DNA from: an uncultured Woeseiaceae bacterium
Lineage (GTDB): Bacteria; Pseudomonadota; Gammaproteobacteria; Steroidobacterales; Woeseiaceae
Length of the DNA: 64,000 nucleotides
Direction of reading: 5' to 3'
Assembly (NCBI GenBank): GCA_947259985.1
Contig: CAMYOJ010000033.1
Coordinates: forward strand, 1-64,000
The notes beneath the pieces are model-generated. The model did not search any database and was not told where the DNA came from. It saw only the letters and a program-made list of their open reading frames with translations. Below, piece by piece: positions 29,991 to 48,761 of the stretch. Position 1 is the stretch's first letter. Each line of letters begins with the position of its first letter. The translations under genes and the position numbers were made by a program.

Positions 29991-30878
29991 TTAGTCCGGA
30001 CTTAGACGATGCCCACTCAAGCTGTTGTGGCGGACCTGTACATGGTCATGTGCCTTCTGCAACTCGGCGACGAGTTGTTCGGTCATGCACACGGAACGAT
30101 GCTGGCCACCCGTGCAGCCGATAGCGACGGTCAGGTAGCCGCGGTGGGCCTCCTTGTACCTCGGGATCCAGCGCAACAGGAACGACAGGATGTCATCGAA
30201 CATCAGGCGGAACGACTCCCGGGAATTCAGGAACTCCGAGACTTCCTTGTCCAGCCCTGTCAGACCGCGTAGTTTCAGTGTCCAGTAGGGATTTGGCAGC
30301 GAGCGCAGGTCGAACACGAAATCGGCATCCGCCGGGATGCCGTGCTTGAAGCCGAAAGACTGCACCAGGATCGAGAGCGCTTCCGGTCCGCGACGATCGA
30401 CGCGGCCACGGACGATGTCTGCGAGTTCATAGATGCTGGTGTCCGACGTGTCGATGATCAGGTCGGCGCTGTTGTGAATCTCGGCGAGGATCTCCCGCTC
30501 GGTTTCGATTGCCGTTCGCAGCTCTTTGGCCTGCGATGCCAGCGGATGACGACGTCGCGACTCGCTGTAGCGCTGCAACAAAATCTCGTCACCGGCGTGC
30601 AGGAAGATGATCTCGGATTGTACGTCTTGCTTGCCGAGTTCACGCAGCAACTCGGGCAGAGATTCGAGATCCCCGGCGCGCGTGCGTGCGTCGACGCCGA
30701 CGGCGAGCAGCCGGGTACCGTCTTTGCCCGAGCGCACGTCATCGACAGCCGCCTTCAGCAGCGCCGCGGGCAGATTATCGATGCAGTAGTAGCCGAGGTC
30801 CTCGAGAACATGCAGCGCGATTGTCTTGCCAGAGCCAGAAAGGCCACTGACAATGATCAGGCGCAATTCGTCTGACAT
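29991..30878 (-). CDS. rapZ: RNase adapter protein RapZ
   Basis: A 295-residue protein. The N-terminal P-loop is GLSGSGKTIAL (about residue 11). The C-terminal GlmZ/GlcN6P-binding domain contains FKHGIPADADFVFD (about 178), ATGCTGGQHRSV-like AIGCTGGQHRSVCM (about 256) and the final basic segment. RapZ delivers the sRNA GlmZ to RNase E and so controls glucosamine-6-phosphate synthesis. The neighbours rpoN-hpf-ptsN are the usual ones. The start overlaps the remnant 3' end of ptsN by 22 bases. Confidence 0.96.
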   Translation of the reverse strand: MSDELRLIIVSGLSGSGKTIALHVLEDLGYYCIDNLPAALLKAAVDDVRSGKDGTRLLAVGVDARTRAGDLESLPELLRELGKQDVQSEIIFLHAGDEILLQRYSESRRRHPLASQAKELRTAIETEREILAEIHNSADLIIDTSDTSIYELADIVRGRVDRRGPEALSILVQSFGFKHGIPADADFVFDLRSLPNPYWTLKLRGLTGLDKEVSEFLNSRESFRLMFDDILSFLLRWIPRYKEAHRGYLTVAIGCTGGQHRSVCMTEQLVAELQKAHDHVQVRHNSLSGHRLSPD

Positions 30879-31277
30879 GATGACTGTGGTGCCGTCAGCG
30901 AGGCGCCGTCGATGAGCGCGTCGTACAGATCGCTGCTGCTGTTCATACCCCGCAGCCGGGCACGCAGTCCTTCATCAGACAGCACCCGGGTGCTCGCCAT
31001 CCGCGGAATCGAAATCGATGGGTTCCGACAACTTGATGAGCGCTGCATTGCTGTCCTCGATACCTTCGACCCGGCAGTGCGGAAAAGCCGCGCCCTTGGA
31101 AAGGCTCGTGCAGCCCAGCCGTTCGCGATCAATCAGGCACTCGAAAATCAGCTCGCTGGCGATGTCGGGATTCGCGCGTACAAGAAGTTCGCTGAGTATC
31201 TCGAGACAGTGTTTCTTGCTGCGTGCCATGGCGTTGCACAGCACGCCGTCCGGTTTTATGATTTTTTCAAGCGACAT
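30857..31277 (-). pseudogene. ptsN: ptsN (nitrogen PTS EIIA) with an internal frameshifting deletion
   Basis: ATG 31277 begins a normal EIIA-Ntr N-terminus: SLEKIIKPDGVL, the active-site His in AFPHCRVEG, and LSEPIDFDSADGE. It then runs out of frame to a stop at 30975. The normal C-terminus continues in another frame, RVLSDEGLRARLRGMNSSSDLYDALIDG, ending at 30857. Compared with E. coli PtsN, about 26 conserved residues (the VDLxFALLVP to LVA segment) are absent, a loss of roughly 74-80 bases. The junction lies in a perfect 14-bp palindrome, 30981-30994. As written, the product would be a 100-residue truncated protein. Its operon neighbours rapZ, hpf and rpoN are intact. Confidence 0.85.
30981..30994. 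repeat. Perfect 14-bp palindrome at the ptsN deletion junction
   Basis: AGCACCCGGGTGCT reads the same on both strands. It occupies exactly the place where the left and right halves of ptsN change frame, so it is either a deletion scar or a structure that provoked the loss. Confidence 0.8.
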
Positions 31278-40433: not shown

Positions 40434-41021
40434 ATGACCGAAGACGACCTTGATCGCAATAGGCGTCATTTTCTTACCGTTGCAACCCTTGTGACCGGGG
40501 CCGCCGGCGTCGGCGCGGTTGCGATACCGTTTCTCTCGTCGCTGAATCCCAGCGCCCGTGCGCAAGCGCTCGGCGCGCCCGTAGAAGTGCCGCTGGGTTC
40601 GATACAGCCGGGTGAAATGGTCCGCGTACTGTGGCGTGGCAAGCTCGTGTTCGTGCTGCGCCGTGACGAGAATATGCTCGCCAGTCTGCCGGACGTCACC
40701 GACGAATTGCGCGATCCAAACTCAGAAGTCGTCGAGCAACAGCCAGACTACGCGGCCAACGAGACTCGTTCGGTCAAACCCGAGTACCTCGTGGTCGAGG
40801 GTTCCTGCACGCACCTCGGCTGCGCGCCGCTGGAGGATTTCGACGTGCGGCCCGCAGAGGGCTGGGGCGGCGGGTTCTTCTGTCCCTGTCACGGCTCCAA
40901 GTTCGACCTGGCCGGACGCGTTTATAAAGGCGTACCGGCGCCCACCAACCTGCGGATACCACCGCACCGATTTGTCAGGGATGACCTGATATTAATCGGT
41001 CAGGATACGGGAGCGGCGTAA
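40434..41021 (+). CDS. petA: Ubiquinol-cytochrome c reductase iron-sulfur subunit
   Basis: A 195-residue Rieske protein of complex III. An N-terminal Tat-type signal-anchor ([14 protein letters not shown]...) tethers the domain to the membrane. The 2Fe-2S ligands lie in [11 protein letters not shown] (about residue 124) and [10 protein letters not shown] (about 148). The TAA overlaps the ATG of petB (TAATG). First gene of petABC. Confidence 0.97.
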
Positions 41022-42213
41022 TGGCGAGGATCGAAGCAGAGGTCGGCAAACCCCAGGGCGGCTTCATGAAGTGGATAGACGATCGTTTTCCGTTCACGAA
41101 GACGATGGAATATCACGTCACGAAGTATTATGCCTCGAGTTATTGACGGGCATCTTCCTGACGATGAACTACAAACCGTCCGCCGCAGACGCGTTTGCGT
41201 CGGTCGAGTACATCATGCGCGACGTCGAGTGGGGCTGGCTCATTCGTTACATGCATTCGACGGGCGCGTCGTTCTTCTTCATCGTCGTATACCTGCACAT
41301 GTTTCGCGCGATGCTGTACGGCTCGTACAAGAAGCCGCGTGAACTGATCTGGCTCATTGGCATGCTGATCTTCCTGGTGCTCATGGCCGAGGCCTTCGCC
41401 GGTTACCTGCTGCCCTGGGGCCAGATGTCCTACTGGGGCGCACAGGTCATCATCTCGCTGTTCGGCGCGATACCGTGGGTCGGCGACGCGCTTGTCGAGA
41501 TCATTCGCGGCGACTACTCGATATCCGACATTACGCTGAATCGCTTCTTTGCATTGCACGTCATCCTCCTGCCGCTGGCGCTGATCGGCCTCGTTTTCGT
41601 ACACATCGTGGCGCTTCACGAGGTGGGATCGAACAACCCGGACGGTATCGATATAAAGGACCACAAGGATGAAACCGGCAAGCCGATCGACGGCGTGGCG
41701 TTTCACCCTTACCACACGTCGAAGGACCTTGTTGGCATCATCGTATTCCTGATGATCTTCAGCTCGGTCGTATTCTTCGCGCCTGACATGGGCGGTTATT
41801 TTCTCGAACACGCAAACTTCGAGCCGGCCAACCTGACCGCGACGCCCGAACACATCGCGCCGGTCTGGTACTTCACGCCGTTCTACGCGATCCTGCGAGC
41901 CGTGCCCGACAAGCTGTGGGGCTTCATCCTGTTCGGCCTGTCGGTACTGCTGCCCATATTCCTGCCGTGGCTGGACCGCTCGAGAGTCAGGTCGATTCGT
42001 TACCGCGGATGGATTTACAAGACGGCGCTGACCGTGTTCACGATTACGTTCCTGGTACTCGGATGGCTGGGCACCATGCCCGCGGAAGGGCTGTACGTCC
42101 TGATGGCACGCATCTTCTCGGTGATCTACTTCGCCTTCTTCCTGCTGATGCCGTACTACTCGGCCATAGACAAGACAAAGCCGGTGCCGGACAGGGTGGT
42201 CTACCATGGATAA
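41021..42213 (+). pseudogene. petB: Cytochrome b of complex III, broken by a short deletion in helix A
   Basis: ATG 41021 begins a normal cytochrome b N-terminus (MKWIDDRFPFTKTMEYHVTKYYAS) but runs into TGA at 41144-41146. The remainder is in another frame from 41140: LLTGIFLTMNYKPSA, then haem-b His residues in RYMHSTGA and HMFR, GYLLPWGQMSYWG, the PEWY-equivalent PVWYFTPFYAIL and all later helices to 42213. Compared with family members, about 19 residues of the first membrane helix (usual KNFNFWYFFGS...) are missing. A loss of 58 bases fits both spacing and frame. petA and petC are intact, and petC starts 8 bases inside the petB end. As written, no functional cytochrome b could be made. Confidence 0.88.
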
Positions 42214-42964
42214 GTTCACGAAAAAAACCGGGCTGACGGTACTGATTACGTTGTTCTGGGCGTCATTGGGCCTCGCGGCCGGTGGTGGCGGCGCGCACAT
42301 GGAACCCGCAGATATTGACCCCGACAACATCGCATCACTGCAGCGCGGTGCCCGCAATTTCATGAATTATTGCTCCGGTTGCCATTCGGCCCAATACGTT
42401 CGCTACAACACGATTGGCAAGGACCTCGAGTTGTCCGAGGAGCAACTGATCGACAACCTCATGTTCAATGCCGAGAAGACCTTCGAGACGATCCAGACCG
42501 CGATGCCGGCAGACGATGCAGCAAGGTGGTACGGTACGACACCGCCCGACATGTCCTTGATGGCCAGAGCGAAGGGTGCCGACTACGTCTACAATTTCCT
42601 CAAAGGCTTCTATGTGTCCGAAGAGAGCCCAACCGGAGTCGACAACCTCATGCTGGAGGGCACAAGCATGCCGCATGTGCTCTGGGAGCTGCAGGGCTAC
42701 CAGGAAGCGCACTTCGAACATCATGAGAATGAAGACGGTTCAGTCACAACGACCTTCGACGGCTTCGAGCAGATGGCGGCCGGCGCCATGGATGCCGAGG
42801 CCTACGACGAATTCGTGCGCGATACCGTGAATTTCCTTGCCTATATTTCCGAGCCTATTCGCTCGGACCGACGCAAGCTGGGTGTCTGGGTGCTTATGTA
42901 CCTGATCTTCTTCTTCATCCTCGCCTCGATGCTAAAGAAACAGATTTGGAAGGATGTGAAGTAA
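42206..42964 (+). CDS. petC: Cytochrome c1 of the bc1 complex
   Basis: A 252-residue cytochrome c1. A signal peptide covers about residues 1-25, the haem-binding CSGCH is near residue 57, and the methionine ligand lies in EGTSMPHVLWELQG (about 153). A C-terminal membrane anchor (LGVWVLMYLIFFFILASML) precedes KKQIWKDVK. It overlaps the petB end by 8 bases and shares TAATG with sspA. Confidence 0.97.
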   Translation: MDKFTKKTGLTVLITLFWASLGLAAGGGGAHMEPADIDPDNIASLQRGARNFMNYCSGCHSAQYVRYNTIGKDLELSEEQLIDNLMFNAEKTFETIQTAMPADDAARWYGTTPPDMSLMARAKGADYVYNFLKGFYVSEESPTGVDNLMLEGTSMPHVLWELQGYQEAHFEHHENEDGSVTTTFDGFEQMAAGAMDAEAYDEFVRDTVNFLAYISEPIRSDRRKLGVWVLMYLIFFFILASMLKKQIWKDVK

Positions 42965-43593
42965 TGGCAGTAGTACCCAATAGACGTTCTGTTATGACGT
43001 TGTTCTCGAGACCGACCGACATACACAGCCACCGTACCCGGCTGGTATTGGCGGAAAAGAACATCAACATCGAGATCTCGAATGTCGCCGGGCCGGACCT
43101 GCCCGAGGACCTCATGGACCTGAATCCGTACCATACGGTGCCGACGCTGGTTGACCGCGACCTGACGCTGTACGACTCACGCGTCATCATCGAGTACCTG
43201 GACGAGCGTTTCCCGCATCCGCCGCTGATGCCCGTGGATCCCGTGACGCGCGCGCAGTTTCGACTCGCGCTGTTTCGCATCGAGAAGGACTGGTACGCGA
43301 TCGCCGAGGAAGCCGAGTCCAGTAATGACGGCAAGCTCGGTAGCAAGTCGCGCAAGATGTTGCGTGAGAGTATTCTGCAGAGCACCGAATTATTTGGCGC
43401 GCGGCCGTACTTCCTGAGCGAGGAATTCTCGCTCGTGGACTGCACCATAGCGCCCTTGCTATGGCGCCTGCCTGTCTACGGAATTGAACTCGGCGCGGAC
43501 GCGGAGCCGATAGAGGCTTACATGAACCGCGTGTTTGCGAGGCGCTCGTTCCAGCAGAGTCTTACCGAACTCGAACAGGAAATGCGCCTGTAA
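42964..43593 (+). CDS. sspA: Stringent starvation protein A
   Basis: A 209-residue GST-fold RNA-polymerase-associated protein starting at ATG 42964. The thioredoxin-like N domain includes TLFSRPTDIHSHRTRLVL, with Ser/Pro rather than a catalytic Cys. NPYHTVPTLVDRD and YDSRVIIEYLDERFPHPPL precede the helical C domain with VDCTIAPLLWRL. SspA remodels polymerase under starvation. Coupled to petC through TAATG; sspB follows after 141 bases. Confidence 0.95.
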   Translation: MAVVPNRRSVMTLFSRPTDIHSHRTRLVLAEKNINIEISNVAGPDLPEDLMDLNPYHTVPTLVDRDLTLYDSRVIIEYLDERFPHPPLMPVDPVTRAQFRLALFRIEKDWYAIAEEAESSNDGKLGSKSRKMLRESILQSTELFGARPYFLSEEFSLVDCTIAPLLWRLPVYGIELGADAEPIEAYMNRVFARRSFQQSLTELEQEMRL

Positions 43594-48194: not shown

Positions 48195-48200
48195 TAAAAT
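48195..48200 (+). promoter_or_regulatory. Probable -10 element of rnpB
   Basis: TAAAAT lies six bases before the inferred first nucleotide of RNase P RNA (48206), the right distance for a -10 element. No consensus -35 hexamer is seen. Confidence 0.5.
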
Positions 48201-48205
48201 GTGCC

Positions 48206-48468
48206 GTGAGAGAGCCGGAGTCGGCCAGGCAATCGCTGCGAGTCATCTCGCAGAGGAAAGTCCGGGCTCCTTCGGACAGGGCGCCAGGTAACGCCTGGGG
48301 GGCGTGAGCCCATGGAAAGTGCCACAGAAAATATACCGCCGATCTCTGGTCGGTAAGGGTGAAAAGGTGCGGTAAGAGCGCACCGCGCGACTGGTAACAG
48401 CTCGCGGCACGGTAAACCCCGCCCGGAGCAAGACCAAATAGGGGAATTGCGGGCTCCGGCTTTCTCAC
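48206..48468 (+). ncRNA. rnpB: RNase P RNA (class A), lacking its 3' conserved core
   Basis: Conserved landmarks appear in order: GAGGAAAGTCCGGGC (about 48251), CAGGTAACGCCTGG, GTAAGGGTGAAAAGGTGCGG, TAAGAGCGCACCG, GGTAACAG, GGCACGGTAAACCCC and GAGCAAGACCAAATAGGG. Helix P1 pairs 48206-48220 with 48454-48468. Between the AAATAGGG motif and P1 only about a dozen bases remain. The usual P2 3' strand and the GATGAATGACTG...ACAGAACCCGGCTTA core are absent. Length is 263 against about 350-380, so roughly 100 bases are missing. The missing part contains the 3' half of P4, the catalytic centre, so this RNA could not be active as written. Confidence 0.9.
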
Positions 48469-48489
48469 TCCCTCTTTTTCTTTTTAAAA
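48469..48489 (+). terminator. T-rich end of the rnpB transcript
   Basis: Right after helix P1, a T-rich run (about 48471-48485) follows the GC-rich helix, consistent with intrinsic termination of rnpB. The rest of the 381-base stretch to mraZ (48490-48849) shows no gene, only the promoter and operator described next. Confidence 0.55.
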
Positions 48490-48731
48490 CAATAACTTAT
48501 AATATATGCGCTCCGTTTCCCGTAGATAGACGCGGGCGCCGCGCAAATTGTCGCGATCAGCCGCCCCGATCGAGCGCTGTCGCCCAATCGCGACCCATTT
48601 TTGAGGTCTTGTCGAAGAAGTAGCTCTAAGCAACTGATTTAATTAGCGCGATTACTGCCACAATTCGCCCTTTTTGGGCCACGGAAAAGCCTCTAAGTCA
48701 CTGTAGAACAACAACTAATTGCTAAGTCCTG

Positions 48732-48761
48732 TTGACGGTCGCGCTGGCGGCCACCTATAGT
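48732..48761 (+). promoter_or_regulatory. Sigma-70 promoter of mraZ and the dcw cluster
   Basis: TTGACG (48732-48737) and TATAGT (48756-48761) are separated by 18 bases, with a predicted start site near 48768. This is the only good promoter match upstream of the tightly packed dcw genes. Confidence 0.75.

Follow-up and report, generated by a model that had tools for sequence, protein, structure and literature searches.

The closest described counterpart of the locus studied here is the cytochrome b of the proteobacterial bc1 complex. The petB gene analysed below resembles it in its domains and in the gene order petA-petB-petC-sspA, but differs in that 58 bases are missing, transmembrane helix A is mostly gone and the reading frame is broken. 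Two kinds of technical error are also relevant. Gaps in short-read scaffolds can be mis-sized: PMC3158087 states that gap estimates need correction, the read pairs that span a gap being necessarily longer than the gap, and PMC3504050 defines negative gaps and suspects that gap sizes are under-predicted. Such cases are similar to the too-short N gaps and the repeat-free losses of 47 to 74 bases described below, but the petB junction contains no N, which makes its assignment to this class indirect, and both papers deal with other genomes and assemblers. Pseudogene calls with a technical origin in sequencing or assembly are treated in PMC11017572 and PMC12007338, and the apparent frame breaks there are likewise technical; the errors in PMC12007338 are those of long reads, whereas the losses reported here amount to tens of bases. 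A literature search yielded nothing on the petB junction itself.

The window, as we call the whole 64-kb stretch of Woeseiaceae DNA that was analysed, belongs to contig 33 of a draft metagenome-assembled genome (60 contigs, 2.5 Mb, 82% completeness). The petB gene and its neighbours are arranged as follows.

40434-41021, plus strand: petA, Rieske iron-sulfur subunit, 195 aa, intact (TIGR01416, 212 bits against a cut-off of 97.4; PF10399 and PF00355).
41021-41137, plus strand: 5' part of petB, 39 codons from the true start ATG 41021, under purifying selection as in relatives.
41137/41138, plus strand: petB junction, 58 bases missing (most of helix A), with 1 base of ambiguity.
41138-42213, plus strand: rest of petB in a shifted frame (PF00033), within a mechanical open reading frame at 41071-42213 (GTG start).
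42206-42964, plus strand: petC, cytochrome c1, 252 aa, open (PF02167, 77 bits against 22.8).
42967-43593, plus strand: sspA-like gene, open (NF007016, 290.2 bits, slightly below the cut-off of 314; glutathione S-transferase domains).

The first 39 codons of petB end in YYAS and are followed by a foreign frame. The other 357 codons, from LLTGIFLTMNYKP... up to the stop codon at 42213, lie in the frame of 41023, and no single frame joins helix A to the true N-terminus of this petB. The translations confirm an earlier note on this DNA, which had placed the N-terminus at 41021 and the remainder in different frames. Nucleotide alignment with genus relatives located the loss as a single gap; tblastn gave a net loss of 58 bases from all six relatives compared, and a seventh, G091, gave the same number. 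The absent bases encode about 19 residues, as the earlier note had also proposed, and their loss breaks the frame and removes most of helix A. The claim that helix A had been lost holds in large part: with its limits as we take them to be, the helix is mostly but not wholly lost, because LLTGIFLTMNY is still there. The translation further retains two pairs of histidines (YMHSTG...YLHMFR and ALHVIL...FVHIVALH), which are presumably the haem ligands. All three cytochrome b domains (PF00033, PF13631, and PF00032) are matched, the PF00033 match on the remainder beginning at profile position 21 of 189. We conclude that the 58-base loss is very probably an artefact of assembly rather than a real feature.

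One could also suppose that translation from GTG 41071 gives a functional cytochrome b that dispenses with most of helix A. The frame from this codon is indeed open for 380 aa, spans the petB remainder and carries cytochrome b domains, but it opens with residues that come from reading the conserved true N-terminus out of frame, so that GTG 41071 is rightly regarded as a false start with an invented N-terminus, as had been suggested. Comparison with other genomes likewise speaks against such a protein. When the intact N-terminal region was used as the query against 73 genomes, 72 matched, including the window's own, and 70 of the 72 other genomes read through helix A in a single frame with no stop; the remaining two are G022, with no match, and G009, with only a fragment at a contig end. 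A wider search, in which the query excluded helix A, gave at least 592 confirmed loci, some of them of the same genus. Helix A is present in all of the best 80 of these, with 12-18 of 22 positions identical, compared with 7 of 22 for the window's out-of-frame extension, a contrast far beyond chance. This identity count was used in place of a helix A pattern, which was too strict (50 of the 80 loci), and of a coverage count, which was too lax (81 of 81, the window itself passing). A functional protein from GTG 41071 is thus almost inconceivable.

Two relatives deserve separate mention. The petB gene of G064 (locus L031, G064:C165) has 45 bases absent in frame just before helix A, near locus position 1568; these bases are present in its near relatives G034 and G095, and their absence is either a real change or another assembly loss. 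G022, a genome of the same genus with 5.1 Mb and a listed completeness of 100%, has neither a petB match nor a PF00033 match, and it is possible that its bc1 complex has really been lost.

We then considered the state of the gene on either side of the junction. The pN/pS of petB is 0.118 before the junction (0.140 among relatives; rank 7 of 26) and 0.133 after it (0.123 among relatives; rank 17 of 26). These values were obtained with 25 of the 29 relatives' loci, three having been missed by the motif search and one having a GTG start. By this measure petB looks to evolve normally on both sides of the junction, with constraint apparently lasting up to the present. The relaxed selection of a decaying pseudogene was not seen in the remaining petB, a result that a very recent loss would also give. 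Against relatives, the homology at the junction was judged by eye as 1 base in petB and as 1, 2, and 0 bases at the ptsN, rsmI, and murD junctions described below. With only 0-2 bases of homology, slippage between direct repeats is unlikely, and it was rejected for all four. Searches of the organism's own assembly (82% complete) for a second petB or a displaced helix A found neither, and the copy number of petB there is one. Phage records gave no match, and the tRNA genes and tandem repeats of the window included nothing bearing on the petB junction.

A scan for frame changes, in which genes were picked by their conservation in six relatives and the window was searched for proteins continuing in another frame, together with a separate scan for in-frame losses, which found the murD deletion, showed that petB is one of four genes in the window with a short internal deletion (ptsN 74, petB 58, rsmI 47, and murD 69 bases). 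The other three are as follows.

30991/30992, minus strand: ptsN junction, 74 bases missing, frame broken; pieces at 30993-31277 and 30860-30991 (6 of 6 relatives and G091).
47215/47216, plus strand: rsmI junction, 47 bases missing, frame broken (5 of 6 relatives and G091; TIGR00096, 207.4 bits against 167.9).
56294/56295, plus strand: murD junction, 69 bases (23 codons) missing, in frame (6 of 6 relatives; TIGR01087, 401.7 bits against 211.95).

Each of the four deletions has a single fixed length as measured from 5 or 6 of the 6 relatives, G023 being the one that gave no flag for rsmI. The three gene names come from the profiles just given and, for ptsN, from TIGR01419, which scored 79.6 bits on the 95-aa piece, below its cut-off. 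For murD, only one place in the organism's own genome exceeds the profile cut-off; it lacks the start of the domain, its match beginning at profile position 59, compared with position 3 in the seven relatives searched. Five further matches to the murD profile in this genome are all below the cut-off and are most likely related ligases. The earlier note had treated the break as singular to the organism's petB, a view for which we find no support: similar lesions lie close together in four unrelated conserved genes of the window and are absent from relatives, and those N gaps of the assembly that could be sized are too short.

Identical scans were run on the six relatives, with 40-80 kb taken from each and 400 kb in total. 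They returned 23 frame-change clusters, and neither these nor any in-frame gap of at least nine residues had the support of more than three genomes. In the window, the one further flag cluster, at 48197, is supported by one genome, and four more in-frame gaps of at least nine residues each come from one relative only. The comparison with G091 also gave a start-region flag at 48753 (net -10), which was dropped; two flags in C11 and one in C6 were dropped too, as inspection indicated antisense or upstream sequence. In a separate observation, the segment at 48197-48560, after rsmI, shows conservation in pieces spread over several frames and, against one relative, a gap of 37 residues; our guess is that it may hold an RNA gene and not a protein gene.

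These results bear on whether petB was truly deleted in the organism. A real and very recent deletion, either fixed in the sampled population or segregating there, that abolishes or cripples the bc1 complex would be compatible with a junction of plain sequence without N, since real deletions require no repeats; it would also fit the single petB copy, and a recent event cannot be dated from the selection seen on the flanks. Against it, petA and petC are intact, and the same 64 kb holds three further losses of comparable size, murD being among the genes hit; the 400 kb scanned in relatives yielded none with such support. The company of these deletions makes a real deletion of petB alone improbable, and we give the reading as a whole only a slender chance. 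Genome decay, in which the lineage sheds many genes through small deletions, would account for deletions in four genes of the window. No 1-2-base frameshift in the window was backed by more than one relative, which speaks against decay and led us also to reject an indel-rich assembly. Decay is further opposed by the lack of relaxed selection on petB and by the comparison with G091 (166 genes tested in all; 51 matched pairs were located on contig 33), in which no further N-free deletion was found outside contig 33 among the genes compared. It is extremely unlikely. The same comparison suggests that the fault may be confined to contig 33, for example because of low depth.

The assembly contains direct signs of mis-sized gaps. 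Runs of 150, 3, 82, and 88 N were found in 784 kb of it, and a further batch gave one run of 100 N and three short contigs that are N throughout; no N runs were found in 1.2 Mb of G091 or in relatives' loci totalling 542 kb, some of which overlap. All three of the gaps that could be sized, among the five N runs of 3-150, understate the distance, by 41, 52, and about 122 bases. The 88-N gap, which we take to lie in a formate-dehydrogenase-like gene, is 41 bases too short relative to G091, the one relative compared. The 150-N gap, presumably in metF, has a span of 620 bases in the organism's own assembly and 672 in 10 of 10 relatives, and is thus 52 bases too short; five of the ten match the whole query, and the other five reach 672 when one or two missing end residues are added. 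Around the 82-N gap, presumably between flgK and flgL, the distance is 139 bases, compared with 260-262 in all four of the ten relatives that have both genes, a shortfall of 121-123 bases. The left flank of the 3-N gap gave no alignment in relatives. Because masked bases would keep their length, these too-short N stretches are scaffold gaps.

The four junctions and the N gaps would have a common origin if short stretches had been left unassembled in the draft genome and scaffolding or gap closing had linked the flanking pieces with too small an estimate of the gap. Where the estimated distance was positive, too few N would have been written; where it was near or below zero, the pieces would have been butted together, and 47-74 bases would have been lost without any N. 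We infer that a single error in gap size produced both the too-short N gaps and, at its low end, the N-free junctions. An assembly error, a possibility for which the read inspection proposed in the earlier note had left room, is much likelier than a petB gene split in the living organism, which, by the same reasoning, should have an intact petB.

The finding is mainly a caution. Automatic gene calling would yield a cytochrome b of 380 aa whose N-terminus is invented, and anyone reading the genome might take complex III to be lost; comparison of the neighbouring genes with relatives points to the assembly instead. The two COX1-family oxidases in this genome give no answer on whether bc1 is needed. 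Were the junctions real, which we consider very improbable, this would be a lineage of the Woeseiaceae genus with recent deletions of 47-74 bases in petB, ptsN, rsmI, and murD. Its bc1 complex would have been lost, or rebuilt with helix A largely missing, and its MurD would lack part of the N-terminal domain; losses of this kind in a respiratory chain and a cell-wall enzyme would be unexpected.
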